64,000 bases of DNA, from NCBI GenBank assembly GCA_008501635.1, contig QQUJ01000005.1, positions 1 through 64,000 on the forward strand, given 5' to 3'. Made by a program: the position numbers and the translations under genes. Source of the stretch: Pseudomonadota bacterium. Lineage in GTDB: Bacteria > Pseudomonadota > Gammaproteobacteria > QQUJ01. Of this stretch, positions 8,071-56,814 are shown piece after piece; the first letter of the stretch is position 1, and every line of letters starts with the position of its first letter. A model generated the notes under the pieces. The model was not told where the DNA came from, ran no database searches, and saw nothing but the letters and a program-made list of their open reading frames with translations.

Positions 8071-8511
8071 ATGTGTCACTCAAGGATCTTCCTCGTAATG
8101 ATTGCCTCCAGTGCGCTGTTAACCGCTTGTGGTGGTGGTGGTGGCACGGGTACGACGATCGGCAGCGGCGCTGGTCAGGTGCCGGCTGGTACCGCCTCGG
8201 TGCAGGTAAGCTGGGATGCGCCCACGAATCGATCCGACGGGTCATGTTTGGGCAATGACTTGAATGGATTCGTCGTGTCGTACGGTAATTCATCCGGCCA
8301 ATATACGCAGAATGCGCAACTCTATTTGAGTTCAGGCTCCATATCCTGTCAGCAAATCGCTTACGACAATGTCTGTGGTGTCAGCGTCAATCGGTGCACC
8401 TATACGGTGGGTGGACTCGCTACCGGCGATTGGTACTTTGCGGTGCGCGCATTTGATGATGTCGGCGCCTACAGCAGCTACTCCTTTGAGGCCTCTACGC
8501 GGCTGAACTAA
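8071..8511 (+). CDS. Fibronectin type III-like lipoprotein
   Basis: From ATG 8071 this is 146 residues. The N terminus is a lipoprotein signal with cysteine C20 (LLTAC), followed by a glycine-rich linker and one beta-sandwich domain resembling fibronectin type III: ASVQVSWDAP at the first strand and a final WYFAVRAFDDVGAYS strand. Four cysteines in the domain could form disulfides. It is an exported lipid-anchored protein, possibly binding carbohydrate or a PEP-CTERM matrix component. A longer frame from 7942 has no signal before the lipobox and is rejected. No clear ribosome site precedes 8071, so the start rests on the lipobox. Confidence 0.7.
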   Translation: MCHSRIFLVMIASSALLTACGGGGGTGTTIGSGAGQVPAGTASVQVSWDAPTNRSDGSCLGNDLNGFVVSYGNSSGQYTQNAQLYLSSGSISCQQIAYDNVCGVSVNRCTYTVGGLATGDWYFAVRAFDDVGAYSSYSFEASTRLN

Positions 8512-8640
8512 CAGAACCAGGACGCCGCTGTCCCATAATCCTTAGAAATAGAGTTTTTTCAGGTATTCGTCGGGTTACGCCAGGCAATCCGACCTGCAGC
8601 TACTCGCGCGATCCCTGGCCAAATCAGGCTACCAGCGCCG

Positions 8641-40937: not shown

Positions 40938-40953
40938 TGGCATGCTCCTTGCC
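40938..40953 (+). promoter_or_regulatory. Sigma-54 promoter of the phenol operon
   Basis: TGGCATGCTCCTTGCC has the -24 GG (40939-40940) and -12 GC (40951-40952) exactly 10 bases apart and matches TGGCA(C)-N5-TTGC at all but one core position. The start should lie near 40964, giving a leader of about 100 bases before ppsA. A sigma-54-dependent activator is encoded at the other end of the locus. Confidence 0.88.
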
Positions 40954-41067: not shown

Positions 41068-42906
41068 ATGGCAAAGGTACAATTTCCCAATCCTCACGAC
41101 GTTGAAACGATTCCGGGGACCGAGGGATGGGAGCGCATGTATCCCTATCAGTATCCGTTCGTTACCGATGATCCGGAACGCAAGGCGTACGAGGAGAACG
41201 CATTCTGGTTCTACGACGGGCTTCACTATCCGGAACCGCTCTATCCCTTCGATACGATCTGGGACGAGGCCTGGTTTCTGGCGCTGTCGCAGTACAACAC
41301 GCGTATCTTCTCTGTTCCGCCGGTGTTCGGTGTCGATCACCGCATGATCAACGGCTATCTGTACATAACGCCTGTGCCGGTCAAAGACCCGGAGGTCATA
41401 CAGTCTCGCATTGCGCATTTCATGGAGCGCGCCGGTTACTACTACGAGAACTGGAATGCGCTGGAGGCGAAGTGGGAACAGAAGATGAAGCAGACCATTG
41501 CGGATCTCGAAGCTTTGGAGATCCCCAAGCTGCCGGAAATGGAAGATTTGAGCGTCGTCAAGGAAGGCCTCGGCGAATCGACCGGGTACAAGCTGCTGAA
41601 GGCGTATGACAACGTCATCGATCTCGGTATCCGGTGCTGGCAGTACCACTTTGAGTTCCTCAACCTCGGGTACGCGGCCTACGTCACCTTCCTCGACTTC
41701 TGTCAGAAGATCTTCCCCGATATCCCGCCACAGCGCGTAACGCAGATGATCTCGGGTATCGACGTGATCATGTACCAGCCTGATGAGGAGCTGAAAAACC
41801 TCGCCCGACGCGCCGTTGATCTGGGCGTGGACGCCGAGGTGCGCAAGGGTACCGACTATGAAGCCCTGAAAGCCTCGTTGGGCGGCAGCGATGCCGGGAA
41901 ACAGTGGTTGGCTGCCTTTGAAAAGGCCCGTTATCCGTGGTTCAACGTATCGACCGGTACCGGCTGGTATCACCACGATCGTTCCTGGAACGATGACCTG
42001 TCTGTTCCGTTGTCTTCGATCGGTATCTACATCGATAAGCTGCATGAAGGCAATTCGCTGGAGCGGCCGATGGAGGCCGTGCAGCAGGAGCGTGATCGCA
42101 TCACGGCGGAGTATCGCAACCTGATCAGCACCGACGAGGATCGCGCAACGTTCGATCAGTTGCTCGGTACCGCCAAGACGGTGTTCCCCTATGTCGAAAA
42201 CCATCTCTTCTACGTCGAGCACTGGTTCCATTCGGTTTTCTGGAACAAGATTCGTGAAGTTGCAGAGATCGTCAAAGAGTTCGGGATCATCGAGGATGTC
42301 GAGGACATCTGGTACCTGAAGCGTGGCGAGATTCGCGATGTGTTGTGGGATGTGGTGACCGCATGGGCGACCAATGTCAAACCGCGCGGCACCTACACCT
42401 GGCCCAAGGAGATCGACTGGCGCCGTGGTGTGATGAAGAAGTTCCAGGAATGGAGTCCGCCTCCGGCCGTCGGACCGGCGCCCGATGTGATACAGGAGCC
42501 GTTCACGGTCGTGCTGTGGGGTGTTACCAACGAGTCGCTCAAGTCGTGGTCCGATATTCAGAATGTAGCCAACCTCGATGACATCGATTCGTTCAAGGGC
42601 TTCCCCGGCAGTCCCGGCAGCGTCGAAGGCAAGGCGCGTGTTTGCCGGACGGTTGCAGATATCGGTCAGCTCGAGGAGGGAGAGATTCTGGTTGCTCCAA
42701 CGACCTCACCGTCCTGGGCCCCGGTTTTCATCAAGATCAAGGCCTGTGTAACCGACGTGGGCGGTGTTATGAGCCATGCCGCTATCGTCTGTCGCGAGTA
42801 CGGGATGCCGGCGATTGTCGGCACCGGTCACGCCACCAAGATCATCAAGACTGGACAGATGCTCAAAGTGAACGGGACGACCGGCGAAGTGACGATCGTA
42901 AAGTAG
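41068..42906 (+). CDS. ppsA: Phenylphosphate synthase subunit PpsA
   Basis: The 612-residue protein corresponds in size and content to PpsA (70 kDa) of Thauera aromatica. The C-terminal 90 residues are the swivelling phosphohistidine domain of PEP-utilising enzymes, with the catalytic H570 in GGVMSHAAIVCRE and the GTTGEVTIV end. The N-terminal 500 residues are the phenol-accepting, PEP-synthase-unrelated part. With PpsB it converts phenol and ATP to phenylphosphate, AMP and phosphate, transferring the beta-phosphoryl group through the histidine. GGAGGAGG precedes ATG 41068. First gene after the sigma-54 promoter. Confidence 0.93.
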   Translation: MAKVQFPNPHDVETIPGTEGWERMYPYQYPFVTDDPERKAYEENAFWFYDGLHYPEPLYPFDTIWDEAWFLALSQYNTRIFSVPPVFGVDHRMINGYLYITPVPVKDPEVIQSRIAHFMERAGYYYENWNALEAKWEQKMKQTIADLEALEIPKLPEMEDLSVVKEGLGESTGYKLLKAYDNVIDLGIRCWQYHFEFLNLGYAAYVTFLDFCQKIFPDIPPQRVTQMISGIDVIMYQPDEELKNLARRAVDLGVDAEVRKGTDYEALKASLGGSDAGKQWLAAFEKARYPWFNVSTGTGWYHHDRSWNDDLSVPLSSIGIYIDKLHEGNSLERPMEAVQQERDRITAEYRNLISTDEDRATFDQLLGTAKTVFPYVENHLFYVEHWFHSVFWNKIREVAEIVKEFGIIEDVEDIWYLKRGEIRDVLWDVVTAWATNVKPRGTYTWPKEIDWRRGVMKKFQEWSPPPAVGPAPDVIQEPFTVVLWGVTNESLKSWSDIQNVANLDDIDSFKGFPGSPGSVEGKARVCRTVADIGQLEEGEILVAPTTSPSWAPVFIKIKACVTDVGGVMSHAAIVCREYGMPAIVGTGHATKIIKTGQMLKVNGTTGEVTIVK

Positions 42907-43009: not shown

Positions 43010-44092
43010 ATGAAGGGAAATGCACCACTGGTTTGTTGGTTTCAAGAGTGCCGAAAAGAGGATGTACCGCTGGTCGGGGGCAAGAACTCATCGTTGGGGG
43101 AACTGATTAACGCCGGTATTCGAGTACCGCCGGGATTCGCCCTGACCACCCACGCCTACCGCCAGTTTATCGAGCAGGGGAAACTCAGCGAAAAGCTGAT
43201 GGGCCTGTGTGACGGCATCGATGACACCGATATGCAGGCGCTGGAGGCCGCTTCCGTAGAAGCGCGTCGGCTTATCGAAGAGACCGATCTGACGTACGAG
43301 TTGGAAGACAGCGTCGCCGAGTACTATCGCAAACTTTCCAATTACTGCTGCATGCCGGCCACGCCTGTTGCCGTTCGTTCCAGCGCTACCGCTGAGGACT
43401 TGCCCGATGCGAGTTTTGCCGGTCAACAGGACACCTATCTCTGGATTCGAGGCGTCGACGATGTGCTGAACCGCGTCAAGACATGCATATCGAGCCTCTA
43501 CACGGCGCGTGCCATTGCGTACAGAAACAAAAACAAGTTCAAACATCATGAGGTGGCTATCAGCGTCGGGATTCAGAAGATGGCCAACTCGTGGACGGCC
43601 GGCGTGATGTTCACACTCAATCCGAGTAACGGTGACCGCTCCAGTATCGTTATCGATTCGAACTTCGGATTTGGTGAATCGGTCGTGTCGGGGGAAGTGA
43701 CACCCGACCAGTTCCTTGTGAACAAGGTGTCGGAAGAGATCATGGCGCGCACGATCTCGTGCAAAGAGGTCTGTTACACCGTCGATCCCATTACCCAAAC
43801 ATCGATACGATCCGAGGTTCCTGCTGAACGCCAGGAGGTTCAGTCATTGCTGGACCACGAAATCGAAGAGTTGGCGCGCATGGGCAAGTTGATCGAGAAG
43901 CACTATGGACGACCCATGGACGTGGAATGGGCCGTTGATAAAACAGTCCCGTCCGGTGGCAACATCTTCATCCTCCAGGCACGCCCCGAGACGGTGTGGA
44001 GTGCCCGCAAAACCGATCCGGTCAGCGGCGGCCGCAAATCGGCCCTCGAGCACATCGTCAACTCGGTGATGACGGGAAAGCGGCTGCAATGA
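43010..44092 (+). CDS. ppsB: Phenylphosphate synthase subunit PpsB
   Basis: PpsB, 360 residues, equals the N-terminal ATP-binding domain of PEP synthase: VGGKNSSLGELINAG (residues 23-37), the RSSATAEDLPDASFAGQQ ATP-grasp block (about residues 123-140) and the DVEWAVD/ILQARPETVW end. It lacks the swivelling and PEP domains, which PpsA supplies in part. It binds ATP and phosphorylates the PpsA histidine. A 103-base gap separates it from ppsA. ATG 43010 follows AGGAAAAGGG. Confidence 0.93.
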   Translation: MKGNAPLVCWFQECRKEDVPLVGGKNSSLGELINAGIRVPPGFALTTHAYRQFIEQGKLSEKLMGLCDGIDDTDMQALEAASVEARRLIEETDLTYELEDSVAEYYRKLSNYCCMPATPVAVRSSATAEDLPDASFAGQQDTYLWIRGVDDVLNRVKTCISSLYTARAIAYRNKNKFKHHEVAISVGIQKMANSWTAGVMFTLNPSNGDRSSIVIDSNFGFGESVVSGEVTPDQFLVNKVSEEIMARTISCKEVCYTVDPITQTSIRSEVPAERQEVQSLLDHEIEELARMGKLIEKHYGRPMDVEWAVDKTVPSGGNIFILQARPETVWSARKTDPVSGGRKSALEHIVNSVMTGKRLQ

Positions 44093-44169: not shown

Positions 44170-45588
44170 ATGGATCTACGAAATTTCATCGACAAATGCG
44201 AGAAAGCCGGCGAACTGGCGCGAGTCAGCGCCGAGGTCGATTGGAATCTCGAGCTTTCGCACATTTCGAAGGTGACCGAAGAGAAGAAGGGACCAGCGCT
44301 GCTGTTCGAGAATATCAAGGGGTATGACTCGCCCGTTTTTACCGGCGCGTTTGCCACCGCAAGTCGTCTGGCGATGTCGGTCAACATGCCGGGTCACTAC
44401 TCGCTTTGCGATTCCGCGCGCGAGTGGATGAACAAGACCATCGATGAACTGATTCCGGCAAAGGAAGTAAAAGAGGGTCCGATACTGGAGAACATTCACT
44501 CCGGTAAAAAAGTGGATCTGAACATGTTTCCGGTGCCGCGGTTTTTCCCCAGGGACGGCGGGCGCTACATCGGTACGGCCACCTTCCTGGCGATTCGTGA
44601 CCCCGACTCCGGGAAAGTCAATCTCGGCACCTATCGCATGCAGATGCTCGATGAAAAACGGTGCGGCGTGCAGATTCTGCCCGGCAAACGCGGCGAACGC
44701 ATCATGAACAAGTACAAGAAAATGGGCAAGAAGATGCCCGCGGCTGCAGTTATCGGTTGCGATCCGTTGATGATGATGGCCGGCGCCCTCCAGCACGAAG
44801 GTGCCCAAAGCCAGTACGACATCATCGGTTCGGTGCGCGGTGCGCCGTCGGAGTACATGCTGGCGCCGATGACGGGATTACCGATTCCGGCGGGGGCAGA
44901 GATCGTGCTCGAGGGAGAGATCGATCCGGAGAACTTCCAACCCGAAGGCCCGTTTGGCGAGTACACCGGGTATTACACCGACGAACTTTACAAGGTGATC
45001 AAAAAACCGTGTCTCGAGGTCAAGCAGATCCTGCACCGCAATAACCCGATTCTGTGGGCGACGTCGGTGGGCCGTCCGGTGACCGATGTGCATATGCTGC
45101 TTTCGTTTACCCGCACCGCGATGTTGTGGAGCGATCTGGCCAAAATGGGAATTCCCGGTATCAAGTCGGTCAATGTGATGCCGGAGTCTGCCGGCCGTTT
45201 CTGGGCGGTGGTTTCCGTAAAGACCATGTATCCCGGTCACTCTTCCCAGGTCGGCCAGGCGGTCATCTCCACCATAACCGGCAGCTACGGAATCAAGGGT
45301 GTCATCGTTGTCGACGAGGACATCGAGGCCGACGATGTGCAGCGCGTCTTCTGGGCGCTGGCGTGTCGTTACGATCCCATGCGCGGTACCGAACTCATCA
45401 AGCGCGGTCGTTCGACGCCTCTTGACCCGGCACTCGATCCCAGCGTCAGCAAACTGATCACCTCCCGGATTCTGCTCGATGCGACCATTCCCTTCGAATG
45501 GGAGGAAAAGCCCGTCGAGGTGGCCCTCGACGAGGCGACCATGGAGAAGATCAATTCGCGTTGGGACGAATACGGAATCAAGCTTTAG
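44170..45588 (+). CDS. ppcB: Phenylphosphate carboxylase UbiD-type subunit (53-kDa class, PpcB)
   Basis: This 472-residue member of the UbiD family has the conserved EGPFGEYTGYY block (about residue 259-269) with the acidic catalytic residue, and binds prenylated FMN in homologues. In Thauera, phenylphosphate carboxylase has two UbiD-type subunits of 54 and 53 kDa; this shorter one is named ppcB by size, and its pairing with ppcD next to it fits reports of ppcB-ppcD in Geobacter. It takes part in the CO2/4-hydroxybenzoate exchange core. The alpha/beta naming could be reversed. ATG 44170 has AAGGA upstream. Confidence 0.87.
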   Translation: MDLRNFIDKCEKAGELARVSAEVDWNLELSHISKVTEEKKGPALLFENIKGYDSPVFTGAFATASRLAMSVNMPGHYSLCDSAREWMNKTIDELIPAKEVKEGPILENIHSGKKVDLNMFPVPRFFPRDGGRYIGTATFLAIRDPDSGKVNLGTYRMQMLDEKRCGVQILPGKRGERIMNKYKKMGKKMPAAAVIGCDPLMMMAGALQHEGAQSQYDIIGSVRGAPSEYMLAPMTGLPIPAGAEIVLEGEIDPENFQPEGPFGEYTGYYTDELYKVIKKPCLEVKQILHRNNPILWATSVGRPVTDVHMLLSFTRTAMLWSDLAKMGIPGIKSVNVMPESAGRFWAVVSVKTMYPGHSSQVGQAVISTITGSYGIKGVIVVDEDIEADDVQRVFWALACRYDPMRGTELIKRGRSTPLDPALDPSVSKLITSRILLDATIPFEWEEKPVEVALDEATMEKINSRWDEYGIKL

Positions 45589-45600
45589 GGGGAATCGGTA

Positions 45601-46110
45601 ATGGAGCAGGCAGAGAATATCAAGCTGGTGATTCTCGATGTCGATGGCGTCATGAGCGACGGCCGCATTGTCATCGACGACAACGGTGTCGAACAGCGCA
45701 ATTTCGACATCAAGGATGGTTTTGGTGTCGTGGCCTTGCAGATGAGCGGCATCGAATGCGCCATCATCACATCAAAAAAATCGGGAGCAGTGCGCCACCG
45801 CGCGCAGGAGTTGAAGATCGCCCGCTTTTATGAAGGTATCAAAAAGAAAACCGAACCCTACGAAGAGATGCTCAAAGACAAAGGCATCGCTGATGCCGAA
45901 GTCTGCTACGTGGGCGACGATCTTGTTGATCTCAAGATGATGAAGCGCGTCGGCCTGCCCGTTGCGGTGGCTGATGCGGTCGACGAAGTGAGAGCGGCGG
46001 CGGTCTATATCACCAAAGCGCGTGGCGGCTACGGTGCCGTGCGCGAAGTGGCCGAGATGATTCTAAAGACGCAAGGTAAGTGGGAAAAGATTCTGGAAAA
46101 GGTTGGCTAA
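45601..46110 (+). CDS. ppcD: Phenylphosphate carboxylase HAD-type subunit PpcD
   Basis: The 169-residue (18-kDa) protein is a HAD hydrolase of the KdsC-like group, with the nucleophile motif LDVDGVMSDG (D13 and D15), a conserved threonine/lysine in ITSKKS and the acidic DDLVDLKMM motif. In the Thauera enzyme the 18-kDa subunit is needed for carboxylation starting from phenylphosphate but not for the exchange reaction, so it probably removes the phosphoryl group and delivers phenolate to the UbiD-type subunits. Here it lies 12 bases after ppcB. Confidence 0.9.
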   Translation: MEQAENIKLVILDVDGVMSDGRIVIDDNGVEQRNFDIKDGFGVVALQMSGIECAIITSKKSGAVRHRAQELKIARFYEGIKKKTEPYEEMLKDKGIADAEVCYVGDDLVDLKMMKRVGLPVAVADAVDEVRAAAVYITKARGGYGAVREVAEMILKTQGKWEKILEKVG

Positions 46111-46137: not shown

Positions 46138-47625
46138 GTGAGCACTGTGAGAAAAGAGAAAGCAGTTGGCGCTGATTACGGCGCACCGGACAGCAATCGC
46201 GAGTTCATCGACATGTTGTTGAAGACCGGTGATGCGGTCGCCATCGAGCAGGAGGTCGATTGGGACAACGAGGCAGGGGCGATTGTGCGGCGAGCGTGCG
46301 AGCTGGGCGCGCCTGCCCCCTACATGAAAAAAATCAAGGACTATCCCGGCAACAGCTATTTCGGCGCGCCGCTGTCCACCTACCGGCGGATGGCCGTCTC
46401 ATTGGGCATGTCGCCCGATTCGACACTGCCGGAGATCTCCACGGAGTATCTGCGCCGTACCAACAGCGATCCTATCGAACCGGTGGTGATCGAACGCAGT
46501 GCCGCTCCCTGCAAAGAGAACGTGTGGATGGGCGACGATGTGGACCTCACCAAGCTGCCCGTGCCGCTGGTGCACGAAGGCGACGGTGGCCGCTACATCG
46601 GCACCTGGCATGCGGTAGTGACCAAGCACCCGATTCGCGGGGATTACAACTGGGGCATGTACCGCCAGATGATGTACGACTCGCGCACCATGTGCGGCGC
46701 GGTCTTTCCCTTTTCCGATCTGGGCAAGACGTTGAACGACTACTACCTGCCGCGCGGCGAGGCGATGCCTTTCGCCACCGCCATCGGCTTGTCGCCGCTG
46801 GCCGCCATGGCAGCCTGTGCGCCGTCACCGATTCCGGAGCCTGAGTTGACCGGCATGCTCGGTGGTAAGCCGGTGGAGCTGGTGAAGTGCGAAACCAACG
46901 ACCTGCTGGTGCCGGCCAACGCCGAAATCATTCTCGAAGGCGTGATCACGCCGGACGTGATGGTGGAGGAGGGTCCGTTCGGCGAGTACACCGGTTACCG
47001 CACCTCGCCGCGTATGCCGCGCGTTACCTTCCGCGTCAATTGTGTCACCTTCCGCAACAACGCGACCATGACCATCTCCAACATGGGCGTACCCATGGAC
47101 GAGGGGCAGTTGCTGCGCTCCTTCTCGCTGGGTCTGGAACTGGACAAGCTGCTGCGCAGTCAGGGCATTCCCATCACGGGCGTCTACATGCACCCGCGCT
47201 CCACGCATCACATGATGATCGTCGGCGTGAAGGTGACCTACGCGGGAGTCGCGCAGCAGATCGCGCAGCTCGCCTTCGGCAGCAAGCTGGGGCCGTGGTT
47301 CCACATGGTGATGGTGGTGGATGACAGCATCGATATCTACAACTGGGACGAGGTGTACCACGCCTTCTGTACCCGTTGTAATCCGGAGCGTGACATTCAC
47401 ATCTACAAGAACACCACCGGAACCTCGCTGTACCCGCATGCCAGCCCGCATGAGCGTGCCTATTCGATCGGTTCGAAAGTATCGTTCGACTGCACCTGGC
47501 CGGTGGATTGGCACAAGATCAACGACGTACCGACTACGGTCTCTTTCAAGAACGTCTACCCGCAAGAGATTCAGGATCGCGTAACCAGCAACTGGGAAGC
47601 CTACGGCTACCCACCGGTCAAGTAA
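46138..47625 (+). CDS. ppcA: Phenylphosphate carboxylase UbiD-type subunit (54-kDa class, PpcA)
   Basis: GTG 46138 with AGAGGA 7 bases upstream gives 495 residues, the larger of the two UbiD-type subunits. It has the EGPFGEYTGY block near residue 277 and the NMGVPMDEG and HHMMIVGVKVTYAG segments of the family. It is distinct in sequence from the 472-residue subunit, so the two are old paralogues, not a recent duplication. It should form the prFMN-dependent carboxylating core with PpcB and PpcC. Assignment to alpha is by length only. Confidence 0.87.
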   Translation: MSTVRKEKAVGADYGAPDSNREFIDMLLKTGDAVAIEQEVDWDNEAGAIVRRACELGAPAPYMKKIKDYPGNSYFGAPLSTYRRMAVSLGMSPDSTLPEISTEYLRRTNSDPIEPVVIERSAAPCKENVWMGDDVDLTKLPVPLVHEGDGGRYIGTWHAVVTKHPIRGDYNWGMYRQMMYDSRTMCGAVFPFSDLGKTLNDYYLPRGEAMPFATAIGLSPLAAMAACAPSPIPEPELTGMLGGKPVELVKCETNDLLVPANAEIILEGVITPDVMVEEGPFGEYTGYRTSPRMPRVTFRVNCVTFRNNATMTISNMGVPMDEGQLLRSFSLGLELDKLLRSQGIPITGVYMHPRSTHHMMIVGVKVTYAGVAQQIAQLAFGSKLGPWFHMVMVVDDSIDIYNWDEVYHAFCTRCNPERDIHIYKNTTGTSLYPHASPHERAYSIGSKVSFDCTWPVDWHKINDVPTTVSFKNVYPQEIQDRVTSNWEAYGYPPVK

Positions 47626-47942: not shown

Positions 47943-49304
47943 ATGGCTTACACGGATTTGCGGCAATTCTTATCCGATCTGGGAACCGATCTGGTACGGG
48001 TGAAAGAGAGTGTCGATCCTCGCTTTGAGGTCGCCGCGGTTCTTAAGGCATTGGGGGATCAGCACCCCGCCGTCATGTTTTCGAACGTGCGGGGTTATGC
48101 GGGCGCCAGCATATGCGGCAACCTGCTGGGCAAGCGCAGTCGCCTGGCCAGAGCATTTGGTACCACGGCCGAAAAGCTTGCGGCGGTCTATCTGGAACGA
48201 AAAGGGCGCGGGATAGCGACGGTCGATTGTCATGGTAAGGCGCCGGTGAAGGAGGTGATCAAGCGGGATCCCGATGACCTTCTCGCACTGTTGCCCATTC
48301 TGACGCACTACGAGAAGGACGCGGCGCCCTTTATCACGTCGGGCGTGGTCCTGGCGAAAGATCCGGCAACCGGACGCCGTGCAATGGGGATACACCGGAT
48401 GATGGTGCACGGAGGTAATCGTCTGGGTGTATTCCTCGCCAATCCTCCCTTGTCTCAATTCCTGGAGAACGCGGAAAAAGAGGGAAAACCACTGGAAGTG
48501 GCGGTAGCCCTTGGCCTGGAGCCTGCCACGTTGGTGGCCGCTGTCGTAAAGGCGGGTTCAACAGGACCGGACAAGCTTGAGATTGCAGGTGCGCTACGCG
48601 ACGAACCTGTGGAGCTGGTGCGCGCGGAATCCGTCGAGATTGATGTTCCGGCGCACGCTGAAATCGTCATCGAGGGGAAAGTACTGCCGGGCGTACGGAT
48701 GAAAGAAGGGCCTTTCGGCGAAAATACCGGTTATTACTTTACCAACGAAAGCCCGGTTATCGAGATTTCCGCCGTCACCCACCGCGATGGTTTCGTCTAT
48801 CCGGGATTGTGTCCCTGGACAGCCGATGTAGATTCCCTGTTGTCACTGGCGGCCGGTACGGAACTGTTGTGGCAGTTGCAACGTCATGTTGGCGCCGTTG
48901 CGGATCTGGAGATGCTCGGTGGGACGATCGGTTTTTCCGCAGTCATCTCCGTGGGCCGCTGTTCAACCAGCGAAGTACGCAGACTGATTCAGTTGGCGTT
49001 GTCTCTGGATAAGCGATTGAAGTCGGTTACCGTCGTTGACGACGATGTGGATATACGTGATCCCCGAGAAGTCGCCTGGGCGATGGCGACTCGCTATCAA
49101 CCGAGCAGGGATACCCTGACAATCGACAGGACCGAACCTTACGTAATCGACCCATCAGCGGTTGCACTCGGCTGCGGTTCGAAAATCGGTTTTGACGCCA
49201 CAAAAGGGACGGGACCAGAGTACGAAAAGGTCGTCATACCCAAGGATGCAAGGTCGCGGGCGCAGACTCTGCTGGCGGGAATCGTTCAGGCGCCGACATG
49301 TTGA
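47943..49304 (+). CDS. Additional UbiD-family (de)carboxylase
   Basis: A 453-residue UbiD-like protein, third in this locus, with the EGPFGENTGYY block near residue 258 and a CSTSEVRRLIQLALSLD segment. Thauera and related phenol clusters also carry an extra UbiD-like gene beside the ppc genes, whose function is unknown. It may decarboxylate or carboxylate a related aromatic acid, or act as a second prFMN-dependent enzyme. Its last 7 bases overlap the DUF120 gene, implying coupled translation. The ribosome site is weak (GAGCG), so the ATG at 47943 is the first in-frame choice and fits the family start. Confidence 0.85.
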   Translation: MAYTDLRQFLSDLGTDLVRVKESVDPRFEVAAVLKALGDQHPAVMFSNVRGYAGASICGNLLGKRSRLARAFGTTAEKLAAVYLERKGRGIATVDCHGKAPVKEVIKRDPDDLLALLPILTHYEKDAAPFITSGVVLAKDPATGRRAMGIHRMMVHGGNRLGVFLANPPLSQFLENAEKEGKPLEVAVALGLEPATLVAAVVKAGSTGPDKLEIAGALRDEPVELVRAESVEIDVPAHAEIVIEGKVLPGVRMKEGPFGENTGYYFTNESPVIEISAVTHRDGFVYPGLCPWTADVDSLLSLAAGTELLWQLQRHVGAVADLEMLGGTIGFSAVISVGRCSTSEVRRLIQLALSLDKRLKSVTVVDDDVDIRDPREVAWAMATRYQPSRDTLTIDRTEPYVIDPSAVALGCGSKIGFDATKGTGPEYEKVVIPKDARSRAQTLLAGIVQAPTC

Positions 49305-49783
49305 CTGTAGAGACCATTCTTCAAGCCGAGACTCTGAGTTTGAGCGGAGTGGTCAGCAGTGGTCTGGGTGAGGGCTGTATGTTCACCAGTCTGCCCTGGG
49401 CGGCCAGCGAGTTCGAGAGGAAACTGGGTTTCATTCCTTACCCGGGAACATTCAACCTGACCATGACCGGCAAAAAGTGGGAACGGGGAAGGAAACGTAT
49501 GCTCACAGAACCGGGTATCGCCATTGAGCCCGCGACCGGATTCTGCGATGCGAAATGCTTTTGGGTCGTGATCGGCGAGCAGGTCGCCGGTGCTGTGGTC
49601 ATCCCGGATATCAGCGAGTATCCCAACGACAAACTGGAGATTCTTTGCCCGGTTCCGGTTCGCAGGACATTGGCCGCGAGTGACGGTCACGAGGTATCGA
49701 TAAAGGTAGCGCTCGACGTAAATCACCGGTGCGATCGGGATGTTCCCCAAGTGGCCAGTGGGGCATTGGGGGGAGGGCAATGA
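49298..49783 (+). CDS. DUF120 CTP-dependent riboflavin kinase-like protein
   Basis: The 161-residue protein matches the archaeal CTP-dependent riboflavin kinase (RibK, DUF120) from end to end: VVSSGLGEG near residue 17, the LGFIPYPGTFNL block (about residues 45-56), AGAVVIPDISEY near 108 and a final VRRTLAASDGHEVSIKV. The same segments occur in Methanocaldococcus RibK as I remember it. Bacteria normally make FMN with the unrelated bifunctional RibF, so a DUF120 gene is unusual in a gammaproteobacterium. It overlaps ubiD-like by 7 bases and nudix by 4 bases, so it belongs to the phenol operon. It probably makes FMN from riboflavin for prenylated-FMN synthesis by UbiX. Activity and nucleotide preference are inference. 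Confidence 0.8.
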   Translation: MLTVETILQAETLSLSGVVSSGLGEGCMFTSLPWAASEFERKLGFIPYPGTFNLTMTGKKWERGRKRMLTEPGIAIEPATGFCDAKCFWVVIGEQVAGAVVIPDISEYPNDKLEILCPVPVRRTLAASDGHEVSIKVALDVNHRCDRDVPQVASGALGGGQ

Positions 49784-50463
49784 GAGACCGGACATCGGAA
49801 TCGGGCGCCGCTCTTCAGACGTGTCAGAAGCCGGCGTATTACCTGAGGGGCGCTCATTTGGCCGGTGGGCCGCAATCCTTTCGCACCCGAATCCGACCCG
49901 GGGGCACCTCTAACTTTGTCGGGCCCAACCGCAAATCGGTTGTGGCGGACTATGCCTCTTGTGCCCAGTGCATGCGTTACAGAAGTGCCGCGCTGCTCGG
50001 CAGACAACCCCCTGGACGGTGCAGTGATTGCGGGTGTTCCCTGACTCGGGAATCGGTCGCCTTGGCACTCATCGAGCACCGCAAGCGATTGGTGCTTATC
50101 AAAAGAACGAAGGCACCACTGGCGGGATATTGGGCACCACCCGCAGGCCATGTGGAGATGGGAGAAACAGTGCCGCAGGCAGTGATCAGGGAAGCGCGGG
50201 AAGAGAGCGGGCTGGAGATAACACTGGATGGAATGGTGGGTATCTATACCGAGCAACGTCTGTCGGGTGCGGACTCGCACATGGTCATCACGGCCTTCAA
50301 CAGCCACTCGGTAAATGGCGATCCCGTGGCCGGAGATGATGCAGGAGACATCGCCCTTTTTGCGCGCGGCAAACTGCCTCAGCAACCGCCGCCCAGGCAG
50401 GGTACAGCAACAGATTACTGGGTCTACGGAGTCATTCAGAGATTGACCGCAAACTGGCGCTAG
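49780..50463 (+). CDS. Zinc-ribbon Nudix hydrolase
   Basis: ATG 49780 overlaps the DUF120 stop (ATGA) and follows GGAGGG. The 227-residue product has a zinc ribbon in its first half, formed by CAQC and CSDC (spacing about 20), then a Nudix box GHVEMGETVPQAVIREAREE that continues ESGLEI, matching GX5EX7REUXEEXGU. Zinc-ribbon Nudix enzymes hydrolyse dinucleotides such as NADH or FAD. The Thauera phenol cluster also includes a MutT/Nudix gene. Two uses fit the locus: splitting FAD to FMN, or converting dimethylallyl diphosphate to the monophosphate needed by UbiX. Start at 49729 would overlap DUF120 by over 50 bases and is rejected. Confidence 0.87.
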   Translation: MRDRTSESGAALQTCQKPAYYLRGAHLAGGPQSFRTRIRPGGTSNFVGPNRKSVVADYASCAQCMRYRSAALLGRQPPGRCSDCGCSLTRESVALALIEHRKRLVLIKRTKAPLAGYWAPPAGHVEMGETVPQAVIREAREESGLEITLDGMVGIYTEQRLSGADSHMVITAFNSHSVNGDPVAGDDAGDIALFARGKLPQQPPPRQGTATDYWVYGVIQRLTANWR

Positions 50464-50507
50464 TCAGCGGCGCCGCAAATTTACTCATGAGACGGAGGGT
50501 TCGAGAC

Positions 50508-50981
50508 GTGAACAATATTACGACCGCTACAGCGCATCCGATTACATCGGAACTGCCGGATGGATTGTTTGATTATCTCAGTGCGGGAGCGTTGAGCATT
50601 GTTATGACCGTTGGTGAGGATGGTTATCCGACTGACGCGTTTACCTGGGCAGCGGCTGTCGACAAAAAGCGCGTTCGGTTTGGCGCCGACCATGGCAGCA
50701 AGACGCTCAAGAATCTGGAGCGCGACGGTCGTGCAGCTGTGCAGATTATCGGACCAGACAATATGGTTTTCCTGGTCAAGGGCAAGTGCCGCCAGATCAA
50801 AGAACGCATTGACGCCGCACTCCCACTGGAGATTTCCATGTGGGAAATGGAGGTCATGGGTGCTCGTGATCAGTCGTGGCCGGGTGCTTCGCCGCTGCCG
50901 TTTGCCGTGCAATGGTCGGGAAAAGACCGTGGAAAACTGGTGCGCATGGAGCAGGACGTGTTTCAGGAGATGCGCAGCTAG
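50508..50981 (+). CDS. FMN-binding split-barrel protein (PNPOx-like)
   Basis: A GTG at 50508 has GGAGGG 8 bases upstream, giving 157 residues. The pattern ALSIVMTVGEDGYPTDAFTWA, followed by a strand ending RVRFGADHGSKTLKNL, is that of the pyridoxamine-phosphate-oxidase-like split barrel, which usually binds FMN. The ATG at 50487 is upstream of the ribosome site. In this locus it may be a flavin carrier or flavin reductase that delivers reduced FMN to UbiX; this is inference from its neighbours. No catalytic motif distinguishes oxidase from reductase. Confidence 0.75.
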   Translation: MNNITTATAHPITSELPDGLFDYLSAGALSIVMTVGEDGYPTDAFTWAAAVDKKRVRFGADHGSKTLKNLERDGRAAVQIIGPDNMVFLVKGKCRQIKERIDAALPLEISMWEMEVMGARDQSWPGASPLPFAVQWSGKDRGKLVRMEQDVFQEMRS

Positions 50982-51004: not shown

Positions 51005-52315
51005 GTGTCGGAAAAAACCATGATCTATTTCGATGAGCAGACAGAAACGATGCCACGCGAGCAGCTGCACGAGTTGCAGTTGCGAAAACTCCAGGCGATG
51101 CTGAATGAGTTGTGGGAGAAAAATCTATTCTATACCCGGAAATGGCGAGCCGTAGGTGTAAAGCCTGCTGATATCACATCTTTGGAGCATTTATCCAAAC
51201 TGCCGCTGACGACCAAGCACGAGTTGATGAGCGATCAGGAGCTCAATGGCCCTTTCGGGAACAACCTTACCTATCCCATCGACTCCTATTCCCGGTTCCA
51301 TCAGACATCTGGAACGACCGGTGTACCGTTGAAAGTGCCGGATACCGCTGACGGGTGGAACTGGTGGGGGCGTTGTTGGGGACATGTGCTGGCAGGTGCC
51401 GGGCTGACCTCTTCTGACCGACTCTTCATGGCCTTTTCCTTTGGGCCGTTCGTCGGGTTTTGGGCAGCGGTTGAGGGTGCAAGACAGATAGGCGCGATGA
51501 TGATACCCGGCGGTGGGAGGGATTCCCTCCAACGGCTGGAGCTGATGCGGGATGCCGGAGCGACCGCTTTGGCGTGTACGCCAACCTACGCTTTACGGCT
51601 TGCCGAGGTGGCGCGTGAAACGGGATTCGATCTGAGCAGCATTCCGATCAAAGCAACGGTGCATGCCGGTGAACCAGGTGCAAATGTGCCTTCCACGAAG
51701 CAGAGAATAGAGCAGTTGTGGAATGCCAAGTGTTTCGATCACGCCGGTGCTACCGAGGTGGGGGCGCACTCCTTTGAGTGCTACGCCCAACCGGGAGGCA
51801 CACATCTTATCGAAAGTGAATACATCGCTGAAGTTATTGATCCGGAAACCGGGGATCCCGTGGCACCCGGCGAACGTGGCGAACTGGTGATAACCAATCT
51901 TGGGCGGTTGGGTTACCCGGTCATTCGGTACAGAACGGGAGACGTGGTGCGCGTCAATCTGGATAAGTGTGTGTGCGGGAGAACTTCGCTGCGCTTCGAG
52001 GGCGGGATACTGTGCCGCGCTGATGATATGGTGACGGTACGCGGTGTGAACGTGTATCCAAGCGCCGTCGAGAACATAATCAGAAAGTTCGATGAAGTGG
52101 ATGAGTTTCGGGTGACGGTCAGCAAGCACAAACACATGGACGAGATGCAAGTGGAGATCGAGTTTATCGTGGGTGCGCAACCGGAGATTGCGGAGACTAT
52201 TGCGGAAAGGCTGAGCTCCATGCTGGCGTTTCGCCCCAAGGTGGTTTTGGTGCCGCGTAATACGCTTCCACGCTTCGAGCTGAAAGCAAAGCGTTTTTAC
52301 GTCAATGCGGCGTAA
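51005..52315 (+). CDS. PaaK-like aryl-CoA ligase
   Basis: A GTG at 51005, after AGGGGA, gives 436 residues, the length of phenylacetate-CoA ligases. The ATP-binding loop QTSGTTGVPLK lies at residues about 100-110, with the adenylate motif YRTGDVVRV and the C-terminal catalytic region ending ELKAKRF, containing a lysine. This family activates aromatic acids to CoA thioesters through adenylates in the cytoplasm. As 4-hydroxybenzoate is the product of PpcABCD, 4-hydroxybenzoate-CoA ligation is the most useful reaction here, but PaaK-like enzymes commonly use phenylacetate, so substrate is uncertain. A longer frame from 50876 overlaps the previous gene. Confidence 0.82.
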   Translation: MSEKTMIYFDEQTETMPREQLHELQLRKLQAMLNELWEKNLFYTRKWRAVGVKPADITSLEHLSKLPLTTKHELMSDQELNGPFGNNLTYPIDSYSRFHQTSGTTGVPLKVPDTADGWNWWGRCWGHVLAGAGLTSSDRLFMAFSFGPFVGFWAAVEGARQIGAMMIPGGGRDSLQRLELMRDAGATALACTPTYALRLAEVARETGFDLSSIPIKATVHAGEPGANVPSTKQRIEQLWNAKCFDHAGATEVGAHSFECYAQPGGTHLIESEYIAEVIDPETGDPVAPGERGELVITNLGRLGYPVIRYRTGDVVRVNLDKCVCGRTSLRFEGGILCRADDMVTVRGVNVYPSAVENIIRKFDEVDEFRVTVSKHKHMDEMQVEIEFIVGAQPEIAETIAERLSSMLAFRPKVVLVPRNTLPRFELKAKRFYVNAA

Positions 52316-52339: not shown

Positions 52340-53020
52340 ATGAAAGTCACCAACTGGATGCAACCAAATCCAAGAACCATCACCAGCGATGCGCTGGTCA
52401 GTGAGGCGAAACGGATTTTAAGCGAAAACAATTTGCGTGCGCTGCCAGTGGTCGACGACGGAGAACTGCGAGGTCTGATTACGCGCGCGAGCTGTTTGCG
52501 CGCGACTGAATTCGTCACCAGGACGCAGGACGTCAACGAGTTCGACTATCTGGTAAACCGGCTCAAAGTCAAAGACCTCATGGTGCGCCGTCCGGCCACC
52601 GTTAAGGCCACCGATACGATGGAGCATGTGCTGCAAAAGGGACAGACACTGAAAATAGGGCAGTTCCCGGTGCTTGAAGGAGATCAGGTGGTAGGATTGA
52701 TTTCAGCAACCGAAGTGTTCAAATTGGCTGCGATTTTCCTTGGTGTCTTTGAAAAATGGAGCGGAATCACATTGGCTCCTATAGAAATAGAGCCAGGAAC
52801 CGTTGGCCGAATTGCCGCCATCGCCGAGGGCGCTGGCGCAATCGTACACTCGATCTATCCGATTGGTCAGGAAGTTGCTGGTGGTCCGAAGCGAGTCATA
52901 CTTCGGTTTAAATGTACCGCCTGCGAGAAGGTGGATGAAGTGGTATCGGCATTCGAAGGGGCGGGGTATAAAGTACTGGAGTTCGACGCCGAGCTGCAGA
53001 AAAATATCGAGCATGGCTGA
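52340..53020 (+). CDS. ppsC: CBS-domain protein PpsC
   Basis: The 226-residue (24-kDa) product contains two CBS domains (residues about 1-60 and 75-135; landmarks VTNWMQPNPRTITSDALVSEA quoted as MQPNPRTITSDALVSEA, then LKVKDLMVRRPATVKATD) and a C-terminal ACT-like region with LRFKCTACEKVDEV. It corresponds to PpsC of Thauera, which stimulates phenylphosphate synthase several-fold. In most clusters ppsC follows ppsB directly; here it is separated by nine genes. CBS pairs commonly bind adenine nucleotides, so it may sense energy charge. Confidence 0.85.
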   Translation: MKVTNWMQPNPRTITSDALVSEAKRILSENNLRALPVVDDGELRGLITRASCLRATEFVTRTQDVNEFDYLVNRLKVKDLMVRRPATVKATDTMEHVLQKGQTLKIGQFPVLEGDQVVGLISATEVFKLAAIFLGVFEKWSGITLAPIEIEPGTVGRIAAIAEGAGAIVHSIYPIGQEVAGGPKRVILRFKCTACEKVDEVVSAFEGAGYKVLEFDAELQKNIEHG

Positions 53021-53124
53021 CACCGGGGCGAGTTGAATCCGTCTGCCTCGCAACCATAGTCAAGCGATGCGAGAGCATTGCCCGGAACTGATAGATGGAT
53101 TGAGGAGCAAGGAGAACAGCTGAT

Positions 53125-53727
53125 ATGAGTTTGCCCTTGGTCGTAGCAATTACCGGCGCAACCGGTGTCATATATGGCATTGAGGTCTTGAAGGCACTCA
53201 AGGCTGCAAATGTACCCACTCATCTCGTTCTCAGTGAATCGGCGATACGGAACATCACTTTGGAAACGGACTATTCGCTGGATACCGTGCGGTCGCTGGC
53301 AGATCGGGTTCACAACAACAAGGATATAGGCGCCGCGGTTGCCAGTGGTTCATTCCGGGCGCGTGGGATGATTGTGGCCCCCTGCAGCATCAAGACGCTT
53401 TCGGCCGTTGCCAATTCTTTTAACTACAATCTCGTGGTTCGCGCGGCAGATGTGACGCTCAAAGAACGCCGACCATTGGTGTTGATGGTGCGTGAGACTC
53501 CATTGCACAAAGGACATCTCGACCTCATGAGCAAGGTTGCGGATCTCGGCGGCATGATACTTCCGCCTATGCCGGCCTTTTATCACGCGCCTCAGACGAT
53601 CATGGATATCATTCACCAGAGCGTGGGCAAAGCACTGGATCTGGTTGGGGTGGAACATACGCTGTTCGAGCGATGGACAGGCGATATGCCAGGCAAGAAG
53701 TCCATGCCTGTGACCGGTTCCGAGTAA
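53125..53727 (+). CDS. ubiX: UbiX-like flavin prenyltransferase
   Basis: The 200-residue protein has the UbiX start VVAITGATGVIYGIEVL, the middle IVAPCSIKTLSAVANSF and the C-terminal MRETPLHKGHLDLMSKV. Flavin prenyltransferases join reduced FMN and dimethylallyl phosphate to make prenylated FMN, the cofactor of UbiD-family enzymes. Three UbiD-type proteins are encoded here, so a dedicated copy fits; Thauera has one in the same place. ATG 53125 is preceded by AGGAGAACAG. Confidence 0.93.
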   Translation: MSLPLVVAITGATGVIYGIEVLKALKAANVPTHLVLSESAIRNITLETDYSLDTVRSLADRVHNNKDIGAAVASGSFRARGMIVAPCSIKTLSAVANSFNYNLVVRAADVTLKERRPLVLMVRETPLHKGHLDLMSKVADLGGMILPPMPAFYHAPQTIMDIIHQSVGKALDLVGVEHTLFERWTGDMPGKKSMPVTGSE

Positions 53728-53735
53728 GCGCAGAG

Positions 53736-54530
53736 ATGCACCCGCCCGCTCGCGACTGGTGGGTACCCGAAGGCAGCATCATCTACGTCATCGGGGACAT
53801 TCACGGTCGGGTCGATCTGCTCGATGCGCTACTGGAGCGCATTGCTGACGACGAGGGTCAGCGTGGGACGACACAAAGATGCCTGGTGTTTCTGGGTGAC
53901 TATATTGACCGTGGCCCCGCTTCAAGAGAAGTAATTGATCGACTTCTCAATGATCCGCTACCCACCTTCCACAAAGAGTTTTTGCTGGGCAATCACGAAC
54001 AAGTCATGCTGCGCTACCTGAATGGGGATCTGCGGGTGGCGCGTCACTGGCTGCAAAAGGGCGGCTTGCAGGCTGTGAGTTCCTACGGTCTGGATGTTGC
54101 GCTGGAAAATTTGACTGATGACAAAGCTTTGGAATCACTGAGAAAGGCGATTAAACAAGCCATTCCGAATCGGCACATGGATTTTTATCAGCATCTGAAG
54201 TCCAGCCACAGAGAGGGTGATTACTATTTTGCCCATGCGGGAGTATTGCCCGGGGTGCCTTTGGAGCAGCAAACGGTACGAGATCTGGTGTGGATACGTG
54301 GGCGTTTTCATCGTTCTGTTGTCGATCACGGCGTCAGGGTCGTTCATGGTCACGAGGTGGTGCCGAGAGTGGAAGTGCGAACCAACCGGATAGGAATCGA
54401 CACGGGTGCGTATCGCACCGGGGTACTTACCTGCCTCGTGCTGAATGCGAACACGATCCGATTTCTGCAGACAGGTCAGCGGGGTGCTCCTGATTCCGAG
54501 CAAAGTCGGCTCGATCTCAGTTCAGCGTAG
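53736..54530 (+). CDS. PPP-type Ser/Thr protein phosphatase-like protein
   Basis: From ATG 53736 (264 residues) the PPP metal motifs are complete: GDIHG (residues about 22-26), GDYIDRG (about 55-61), GNHE (about 86-89) and the late histidine motifs YFAHAG and VVHGHE. Such bacterial phosphatases remove phosphate from Ser, Thr or Tyr of proteins, or hydrolyse small phosphodiesters. It sits at the end of the phenol operon, 8 bases after ubiX, and its 3' end overlaps the convergent regulator gene by 14 bases. A direct role with phenylphosphate is possible but the motifs favour a protein substrate. Confidence 0.82.
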   Translation: MHPPARDWWVPEGSIIYVIGDIHGRVDLLDALLERIADDEGQRGTTQRCLVFLGDYIDRGPASREVIDRLLNDPLPTFHKEFLLGNHEQVMLRYLNGDLRVARHWLQKGGLQAVSSYGLDVALENLTDDKALESLRKAIKQAIPNRHMDFYQHLKSSHREGDYYFAHAGVLPGVPLEQQTVRDLVWIRGRFHRSVVDHGVRVVHGHEVVPRVEVRTNRIGIDTGAYRTGVLTCLVLNANTIRFLQTGQRGAPDSEQSRLDLSSA

Positions 54531-56304
54531 ATTCCTGGTGTTTTTTCAGTCGATACGCCAGTTGCGGCCGGGTGATTCCCAGCATGCGCGCCGCTCTCGA
54601 CAATTTACCGTCGGCGAGTTCAACGGCTTTTTCCATGAGACGGTGTTCGAAGTCTTCGATTGAAATCCCATCGCTGAGCATGGTTTCCATGACCTCGCTG
54701 ATATCAGATCTGGAGGCAATGGCGGGCGACTGGCGTTGTTCGAGATTTCCGGTGCTGTTGAGTTTGAGCACCATCGAAGCCTGGAGGTCCTCCGGGGCAA
54801 ACAAGTGCGAGAGATCGATTGCCTGGCCGTCTTCAGCGAGGATTACGGCGCGCTCTATGAGATTCTCAAGCTCACGTATATTTCCCGGGAAGTTGTAGTC
54901 ATACAGCGCATCCATTGCTCTGCTGGTGAATCCGGTAACCTCTTTTCCATGGAGGGTTGAGAACTTATCCAGGAAAAAATCCATTAATGGAGGAATGTCC
55001 TCGCGGCGTTCCCGCAGCGGAGGGATTCGAACGGGAAACACATTGAGCCTGAACATCAGGTCATCACGGAATGTGCCTTGGTCGACCGCCTCTTTCAGAT
55101 CGACATTGGTGGCGGCGATGATGCGAACGTTGATCTTTCGAGTGATGGTATCGCCCACGCGCTCGATCTCTTGCTCCTGAATGGAGCGCAGCAGTTTTAT
55201 CTGGGCCGCCATCGTCAACGTTCCGACCTCGTCAAGAAACAACGTTCCGCCGTTGGCACGTTCGAAGCGCCCCGGTCGTGATTGGCTGGCGCCGGTGAAC
55301 GCGCCTTTCTCGACGCCGAAAAGTTCGGACTCGACCAGATTTTCGGGAATGGCCGCACAGTTGACGGCAATAAAAGGTTTGTCGGAGCGTTTGCCCATGC
55401 GATGCAACATCTTGGCAAACATCCCTTTGCCAACGCCTGTTTCACCAAGAAAGAGCACCGTGGCATCGGTGTTGGCCACTTTGCGCAACATTTCGCAGAC
55501 TACGACAAGCCCGGATGAATTCCCGACTATGCCATGAGAAAGCATGGCGCAATCCGCGACATCGTCTCTCGAGCCCGGCGCGGTGCGGGTTTTGGACGCT
55601 TTTCCGCGAGAGAGCGCGTGTGTGCTTCCTTTGTCGAGTCGCAATGCCACCAGTTCTTCTTCGATGTCGTCCCATAGCGGCAATGGTTTTCCGATCATCC
55701 GGCACGACTGACTTCCCGATGCGCGACACTCGATCTCCTTGAACACAACATCCCTGCCCATAAAGGTGCTGATGTAACCGCTAGCGTAACCCACCTGCAT
55801 CCAGCAACTCGGAACGTTCGACAGACCAAAATCAGCGATTTGTGCGTCCGCTTCAAACGATCCGGAAAAGGTGAATTCTCCAAAAAAGGTGCCCTTTTCG
55901 AGATCCGCTTCCAATTGCACCGGTTGCAGGGAGATGACCCCCTGGATAGCGCGGAGCTGCGGCCCGACGAGGAGCGCATCCTTCACACTGCAGTGCGGGC
56001 GGAGCTTGCGGGCCAGCGCGGCATCGCGGCAACCCGATGCGTATCCCATGCGGGCAAGACAACCACGCGCATCCTCGATGCCAAGGTTCTCGATCAATTC
56101 GCGGCGAAGAGTTGTCAGCGTGGAGAGATGGATGAGGGCCACGCGTTGCGTGTCGAGCCAGATCTGTCCATCCCGCAGCGAAAACCGCAGACGTTCGGCC
56201 AAATCACCAATATCCGGCACGTCGGTGGTTTCGAGTGTCTCTGGACCGATCAGGTGTCCGGTGACCGATTTCCAGTCTTTTTTACGTGAGACCTCATCGT
56301 TCAT
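54517..56304 (-). CDS. XylR/DmpR-family sigma-54-dependent aromatic sensor-activator
   Basis: From ATG 56304 the protein is 595 residues. The N-terminal XylR_N/V4R sensor domain covers about residues 20-210, with a zinc site C167, E190, C193, C201 matching the spacing of MopR. The AAA domain has Walker A GETGVGKG near residue 287 and the sigma-54 contact loop GAFTGA. The end carries a Fis-type helix-turn-helix (LSRAARMLGITRPQLAYRL). It should bind the enhancer upstream of ppsA and activate the -24/-12 promoter. The phenol-anchoring His and Trp of MopR/DmpR (H106 and W134) align without gaps to R118 and F146, so the effector pocket differs. Convergent with the operon. Confidence 0.9.
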   Translation of the reverse strand: MNDEVSRKKDWKSVTGHLIGPETLETTDVPDIGDLAERLRFSLRDGQIWLDTQRVALIHLSTLTTLRRELIENLGIEDARGCLARMGYASGCRDAALARKLRPHCSVKDALLVGPQLRAIQGVISLQPVQLEADLEKGTFFGEFTFSGSFEADAQIADFGLSNVPSCWMQVGYASGYISTFMGRDVVFKEIECRASGSQSCRMIGKPLPLWDDIEEELVALRLDKGSTHALSRGKASKTRTAPGSRDDVADCAMLSHGIVGNSSGLVVVCEMLRKVANTDATVLFLGETGVGKGMFAKMLHRMGKRSDKPFIAVNCAAIPENLVESELFGVEKGAFTGASQSRPGRFERANGGTLFLDEVGTLTMAAQIKLLRSIQEQEIERVGDTITRKINVRIIAATNVDLKEAVDQGTFRDDLMFRLNVFPVRIPPLRERREDIPPLMDFFLDKFSTLHGKEVTGFTSRAMDALYDYNFPGNIRELENLIERAVILAEDGQAIDLSHLFAPEDLQASMVLKLNSTGNLEQRQSPAIASRSDISEVMETMLSDGISIEDFEHRLMEKAVELADGKLSRAARMLGITRPQLAYRLKKHQESTLN

Positions 56305-56814
56305 TCGGTTTATCCCCCGCCGCTGTCGGTCCGGAACCATGGCACGGATTTCCAGTTCCCGTTTTTTCCGTTAATACCTGGGTTCACCTCGGTCGTGTCG
56401 AGAAAGGTGGACGTCAAACATTACTGGGTCGATTCTACTCTTGTTCCATTGCGAATGTCAGCGGTGTGCCATCCATTGCTGCCGGCCGGGTATGACAGGT
56501 AATGGAGGCGTGGTGGTTTAGAGGGCGATAGTCCTGCCACCGTCATGCTTCCCGACTTCGATGCCATCGACAACAGGCACCGGGTTTTGCATTTCTGAAG
56601 AACGGAGCGCCGGCGCACGGTGACGGGACGGTTCACGGACAAGCGTAAAGAGGCGATACTAGAACCTGTCTCGAAATCCCGCGACCGGTACAGCTCACAG
56701 GGGATCTTGAGACGGGTTCTACAATTCGGGGGTTGAAAAGCACTCTGCCGGTGCCAAATAAGAGAACGGAACCGTGTACCGGGCGATAACGGTACCGCTC
56801 ACTATGGAACTGCC
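56305..56814. other. Intergenic region with 21-bp inverted repeats
   Basis: No gene is supported. It holds the promoter side of the activator gene and the repeat pair listed next. I saw no clear -24/-12 element for the activator itself, so it is probably transcribed by sigma-70. Confidence 0.5.
56660..56721. repeat. 21-bp inverted repeats resembling IS ends
   Basis: TAGAACCTGTCTCGAAATCC(C) at 56660-56680 and its imperfect complement at 56701-56721 (GGGATCTTGAGACGGGTTCT and a final A) match at 18 of 21 positions. A third copy lies at 59028-59048 in the same orientation as the second. Such sequences resemble terminal inverted repeats of an IS or MITE. No transposase is present between or beside them. 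Confidence 0.75.

Follow-up and report, generated by a model that had tools for sequence, protein, structure and literature searches.

The window analysed here, a stretch of 64,000 nucleotides (positions 1 to 64,000 of contig QQUJ01000005.1, assembly GCA_008501635.1), contains an anaerobic phenol (phenylphosphate) operon that carries a gene for a RibK/DUF120 riboflavin kinase homologue. The features of the locus are listed in Table 1. A catabolic operon had been proposed as the setting of this gene in the initial annotation, and this was borne out by matches to TIGR02723, TIGR02724 and TIGR02726 above cut-off, which identify the pathway as anaerobic phenol degradation. The sigma-54-type motif TGGCAYN5TTGC upstream of the operon was matched once in the window against 0.41 matches expected by chance and is weak by itself; it is consistent with the sigma-54 activator gene at 54517-56340, the product of which scored 566 bits against the MobR model NF041906 (cut-off 999). 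The aryl-CoA ligase scored far under the cut-offs of PaaK-family models and is probably a 4-hydroxybenzoate-CoA ligase.

Table 1. Features of the anaerobic phenol operon and its flanks (window coordinates)
Feature	Position	Strand	Evidence and remarks
Sigma-54-type -24/-12 promoter-like site TGGCATGCTCCTTGC	40938..40952	+	Upstream of operon; motif TGGCAYN5TTGC
Phenylphosphate synthase, PEP-utiliser/mobile-domain subunit (PpsA-like)	41068..42906	+	PF00391, NF006152; 71% to Azoarcus KH32C
Phenylphosphate synthase, ATP-binding subunit (PpsB-like)	43010..44092	+	PF01326, E 5.5e-116; 66% to Azoarcus KH32C
Phenylphosphate carboxylase beta (UbiD-type)	44170..45588	+	TIGR02724, 831 bits (cut-off 469)
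Phenylphosphate carboxylase delta (HAD phosphatase)	45601..46110	+	TIGR02726, 288 bits (cut-off 282)
Phenylphosphate carboxylase alpha (UbiD-type)	46138..47625	+	TIGR02723, 968 bits (cut-off 565)
Phenylphosphate carboxylase gamma, 84 aa	47641..47895	+	TIGR02725, E 4e-36, 122.8 bits, slightly below cut-off (135.6); 63% to Azoarcus ppcG
Extra UbiD-family decarboxylase	47943..49304	+	TIGR00148, 299 bits (cut-off 245)
RibK/DUF120 riboflavin kinase homologue, 161 aa	49298..49783	+	PF01982; MJ0056 fold
Nudix hydrolase, cysteine-rich N-terminal part	49780..50463	+	PF00293, E 2.8e-16; full Nudix box GHVEMGETVPQAVIREAREESG
PNPOx-like split-barrel, candidate FMN-binding protein	50487..50981	+	PF01243, E 5e-6, slightly below Pfam cut-off
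Aryl-CoA ligase, phenylacetate-CoA-ligase family	51017..52315	+	PF14535/PF00501; 73% to Azoarcus gene
CBS-domain subunit of phenylphosphate synthase	52340..53020	+	PF00571, E 1.5e-21; 57% to Azoarcus CBS gene
UbiX flavin prenyltransferase	53125..53727	+	NF004685, 250 bits (cut-off 188); TIGR00421, 232 bits (cut-off 109)
Metallophosphoesterase, 3' end of operon	53673..54530	+	PF00149, E 2.8e-11
XylR/MobR-type sigma-54 activator, XylR_N and V4R domains (aromatic sensor)	54517..56340	-	PF06505, PF02830, PF00158

The RibK gene shares 7 bases with the preceding UbiD gene and 4 bases (ATGA) with the following Nudix gene, overlaps that point to translational coupling. The PNPOx-like protein adjoining the RibK and Nudix genes is a candidate flavin reductase or oxygen-independent maturation factor for prenylated FMN (prFMN). 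The genes for the CBS subunit and UbiX (52340-53727) lie at the 3' end of the operon; most relatives have the CBS subunit before ppcB and UbiX between the extra UbiD and RibK. The metallophosphoesterase frame, which overlaps UbiX by 55 bases, is represented in 29 of 45 related phenol clusters.

The RibK frame was translated from its ATG start, and all three landmarks described in the initial annotation were located in the 161-residue product: SGLGEG at residues 21-26, LGFIPYPGTFNL at 43-54 and GAVVIP at 98-103. Its assignment to DUF120/RibK was upheld by a full-length match to the Pfam profile PF01982 (positions 1-121 of 121, E 2.7e-29, 102 bits with a cut-off of 25). The archaeal enzyme MJ0056 was matched by phmmer at 7e-12. 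An AlphaFold model of the protein (pLDDT 89) was found to match the archaeal RibK/RbkR structures 2vbu, 2vbv and 5trd, with Foldseek values for 2vbu of E 1.1e-10, TM 0.66 (query) and 0.80 (target) and probability 1.0. All structure matches at E < 0.001 were to archaeal RibK/RbkR, with ligands that include CTP, CDP, and CDP together with FMN. A chance or misannotated reading frame was ruled out by the profile, phmmer and predicted-fold matches. Scores against the archaeal RibK equivalog models NF040694 (61 bits, cut-off 168) and NF010762 (92 bits, cut-off 279) fell below cut-off, so the protein is a divergent member of the RibK family and no equivalog by these two models. The winged-helix domain is absent and PRK14165 was matched at positions 83-219 only; a DNA-binding regulator of the RbkR type was rejected because the winged-helix part is missing.

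The distribution of the family was surveyed at several depths. Among 14 control genomes RibK was restricted to archaea, and among 398 genomes sampled evenly from the phylum strong matches to RibK and to PpcA (the carboxylase alpha subunit) were each found in the genome of the window only; none of 93 class relatives carried RibK. The family is thus very rare in proteobacteria outside phenol operons. Since UbiX-UbiD systems occur widely among microbes, the near-absence of RibK from the proteobacteria sampled at large indicates that prFMN synthesis in general does without it. The family to which Uliginosibacterium belongs was sampled with 395 genomes, of which 53 had RibK, 48 had PpcA and 47 had both (Fisher's exact p 4e-53, uncorrected for shared ancestry). 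In the sole PpcA genome lacking RibK, the contig stops 44 bases beyond ppcG. The six RibK genomes without PpcA comprise a fragmentary assembly (L089) in which UbiD-UbiX-RibK-Nudix is nevertheless visible, four genomes in which RibK is fused to HAD, and a single match that is marginal and partial. A genome from the wider order that was located by RibK alone proved to contain the whole phenol cluster. No RibK linked to UbiD or UbiX outside phenol operons was found in the sampled genomes, and two weak matches (G223 and G936, E about 1e-4) had no operon gene nearby. The RibK gene travels with the anaerobic phenol operon, of which it is a constant accessory.

A second bacterial type of RibK was encountered in four genomes (L118, L119, L121 at 8053-9177 on the minus strand, and L123), fused N-terminally to a HAD-family phosphatase in frames of about 350-390 residues. 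The fetched flanks of these four genes held no phenol genes.

Gene order around RibK was examined in the 51 fetched cases, where the preceding gene was UbiX in 47 and the following gene Nudix in 48, the commonest order in relatives being UbiX-RibK-Nudix. In 45 clusters with both the alpha and gamma subunits, UbiX was present in 44, the extra UbiD in 43, Nudix in 41 and the PNPOx-like gene in 26. These clusters were gathered via RibK, so its own presence in 45 of 45 is no evidence, and the unbiased figure for the pairing is the 47 of 48 PpcA genomes given above. RibK thus regularly adjoins UbiX, UbiD and Nudix genes, as would be expected of a proposed prFMN supply cassette. The phenol operon of Azoarcus sp. 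KH32C reads ppcBDAG-UbiD-UbiX-DUF120-Nudix-AMP ligase, and in Uliginosibacterium the DUF120 gene sits between the extra UbiD and Nudix. One phenol cluster (L126) has kept RibK and lacks UbiX, the extra UbiD and Nudix; the other cluster in the same genome is complete. That genome (G761) has three RibK genes (L126, L103 and L115), and the glycine loop of the L126 copy is altered to SGLDKAAGF, with Asp-Lys-Ala in place of Gly-Glu-Gly.

A tree of 84 RibK sequences (unrooted) separated all 55 bacterial members from the 29 archaeal ones with a support of 100/100. The protein from the window fell within a set of 38 phenol-operon members (96/92), on a long branch whose exact placement is weakly defined, and almost all members of the bacterial clade are in phenol operons. 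This position indicates that the gene arrived with the operon, and on phylogenetic grounds we regard it as an inherited operon part and not as a fresh archaeal acquisition. The initial annotation had suggested transfer from archaea; as an event specific to this organism, recent transfer was ruled out by the tree. The broader proposal of a recent acquisition from an archaeon that plays no special part in the operon could draw on the confinement of the family to archaea in the control genomes, but the single bacterial clade, the constancy of the gene's operon position in dozens of genomes and a GC content near that of the neighbours (0.568; the window as a whole has 0.58) make it highly improbable. 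An ancient origin of the bacterial clade from archaea and an ancient exchange in the other direction would both fit the unrooted tree.

The housekeeping flavokinase was sought in the same genomes. One bacterial RibF was found in the genome of the window, on a separate contig (C18, E 1.2e-43), so that RibK is a second, unrelated riboflavin kinase homologue, as the initial annotation had supposed, and the case in which it would be the sole housekeeping kinase of a genome without RibF was ruled out. The annotation therefore stands on both the PF01982 match and the presence of RibF. RibF with its FAD-synthetase domain was detected in 51 of 53 relatives carrying RibK or PpcA, and the remaining two are small assemblies of 2.0 and 2.3 Mb.

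UbiX attaches a dimethylallyl group to FMN (PMC6541611) and has been assayed with FMN and dimethylallyl phosphate (PMC10865409). With these activities and the gene context in mind, we think it reasonably likely that the bacterial RibK subfamily phosphorylates riboflavin to FMN and feeds the synthesis of prFMN by UbiX for the carboxylases of the phenol operon. RibK would produce FMN locally, next to UbiX, presumably with CTP as the phosphate donor, and its FMN would not be passed on to FAD as by the bifunctional RibF, a possible advantage over that enzyme. UbiX would then add the prenyl group of dimethylallyl phosphate to reduced FMN. The resulting prFMN is the expected cofactor of PpcA, PpcB and the extra UbiD, the three UbiD-type proteins of the operon that would carboxylate phenylphosphate. 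From gene order and the chemistry of its family, the Nudix hydrolase may perhaps supply dimethylallyl phosphate from dimethylallyl diphosphate. The demand for FMN beyond the capacity of the housekeeping enzyme that was raised in the initial annotation is plausible, and the gene context would make it specific as FMN for prFMN.

A two-subunit UbiD-like enzyme, the phenylphosphoamidate carboxylase of D. anilini (Desulfatiglans), depended in vitro on FMN, Mn2+ and K+ (PMC7500099), which establishes a demand for flavin though not necessarily for a prenylated one. Its in vitro activity with FMN alone fits an alternative in which RibK makes FMN for the carboxylase or the PNPOx-like flavoprotein and the operon needs FMN itself, not prFMN. 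The same could be said of the L126 cluster, where RibK persists without UbiX, and of the candidate FMN-binding PNPOx-like protein in 26 of 45 clusters; the presence of UbiX in 44 of 45, mostly directly before RibK, and the lack of the PNPOx-like gene in 19 of 45 nevertheless render this alternative unlikely.

Residues of the active site were compared in an alignment of 84 sequences (29 archaeal, 51 from phenol operons and 4 fused to HAD). No variation was seen, in archaea or in bacteria, at the columns of MJ0056 Gly14, Thr43, Asn45, Glu107 and Arg115; the last four correspond to Thr51, Asn53, Glu114 and Arg122 in the window protein. In the MJ0056 structures the GTxN motif is reported to bind metal through its Thr and Asn, and the Glu in the C-terminal half is reported as an FMN ligand. 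The flavin-side loop differs: MJ0056 position 98 is basic (R/K) in 29 of 29 archaeal sequences and position 99 is Thr or Ser in 28 of 29, whereas nearly all bacterial members have V/M/I at the former and mostly P/A/G at the latter. In the window protein Ile105 stands where archaea have the basic residue, and Ser106 is retained. A Lys at MJ0056 position 105 has been gained in 50 of 51 phenol-operon sequences. From these replacements and the gained Lys, the substrate or phosphate donor of bacterial RibK may have changed with respect to archaea. Purifying selection was evident from dN/dS values of 0.02-0.33 in the 7 usable close pairs, after pairs of about 20-30% identity (wrong-strand extractions) had been left out, so the gene is maintained.

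The altered loop, in which nearly all bacterial members depart from archaeal RibK, could also mean that the protein phosphorylates another small molecule of the pathway, such as a modified flavin, or dimethylallyl alcohol to give the dimethylallyl phosphate for which UbiX requires a source. As the best fold match is a flavin- and CDP-bound RibK, the presumed FMN-ligating Glu is invariant and dimethylallyl phosphate would more simply come from the Nudix hydrolase, we rate this as very unlikely. Loss of the archaeal R/K98-T99 pair, the variable glycine loop (Asp-Lys-Ala in L126) and the faster change of RibK than of PpcA (48% against 79% identity to the Azoarcus counterparts) would likewise be compatible with a protein no longer active as a kinase that serves as a carrier of flavin or prFMN, a chaperone or a loose carboxylase subunit. 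Such a role would resemble that of LpdD, one of the helper proteins that UbiD enzymes can require (PMC10865409). All 55 bacterial sequences retain the Thr/Asn pair, the Glu and the Arg, which goes beyond the needs of a carrier, and we consider a non-catalytic role quite unlikely.

We thus retain the reading in which RibK supplies FMN for prFMN synthesis. A fuller version, tentative but possible, is that anaerobic phenol degraders have a self-contained pathway to the prFMN precursors, with RibK and Nudix both feeding UbiX and with RibK changed in its flavin or nucleotide specificity.

The protein shares with archaeal RibK (MJ0056) and RbkR the full-length PF01982 match, the fold, the Gly-rich loop, the Thr/Asn of PxxGTxNL, the Glu and the Arg. 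It differs from them in lacking the winged-helix domain, in the replaced R/K98 and T99 and the Lys at 105, in its location in a catabolic operon of a genome that also has ribF, and in scoring below the equivalog cut-offs. RibF makes the same product, FMN, as is expected of RibK, but belongs to another Pfam family (PF01687/PF06574), is encoded at a separate locus and converts FMN on to FAD. The phenol operon of Azoarcus sp. KH32C (plasmid pAZKH; Thauera/Aromatoleum type) has the same genes, including DUF120 and Nudix, at 48-79% identity. In the window, by comparison, UbiX and the CBS subunit are shifted to the 3' end, so that RibK directly follows the extra UbiD, and two genes are added, one for a PNPOx-like protein and, at the operon end, one for a phosphoesterase. 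UbiX-UbiD systems with LpdD resemble the locus in having UbiD-type carboxylases, their own UbiX and an extra small gene; the accessory in the window is a RibK homologue and thus a putative precursor-supply enzyme, not a known prFMN chaperone. A full-text search of openly licensed papers returned none linking RibK with prFMN, UbiX/UbiD or phenylphosphate carboxylase. The RibK family and the phenol operon are already known; their regular pairing and the proposed role seem undescribed.

Enzymes that depend on prFMN are widespread and are used in biocatalysis, and to our knowledge the cellular supply of FMN, and especially of dimethylallyl phosphate, to UbiX is not settled. The presence of UbiX, a riboflavin kinase homologue and a Nudix hydrolase in one operon yields concrete gene candidates for the supply of both prFMN precursors, and may help to obtain phenylphosphate carboxylase in active form from a heterologous host. 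If the proposal is true, this would be the first case known to us in which enzymes for cofactor precursors are encoded together with a UbiD carboxylase. The anaerobic phenol operon is also shown to be a regular bacterial location for an 'archaeal' enzyme whose annotation, for example in Azoarcus KH32C, goes no further than DUF120.
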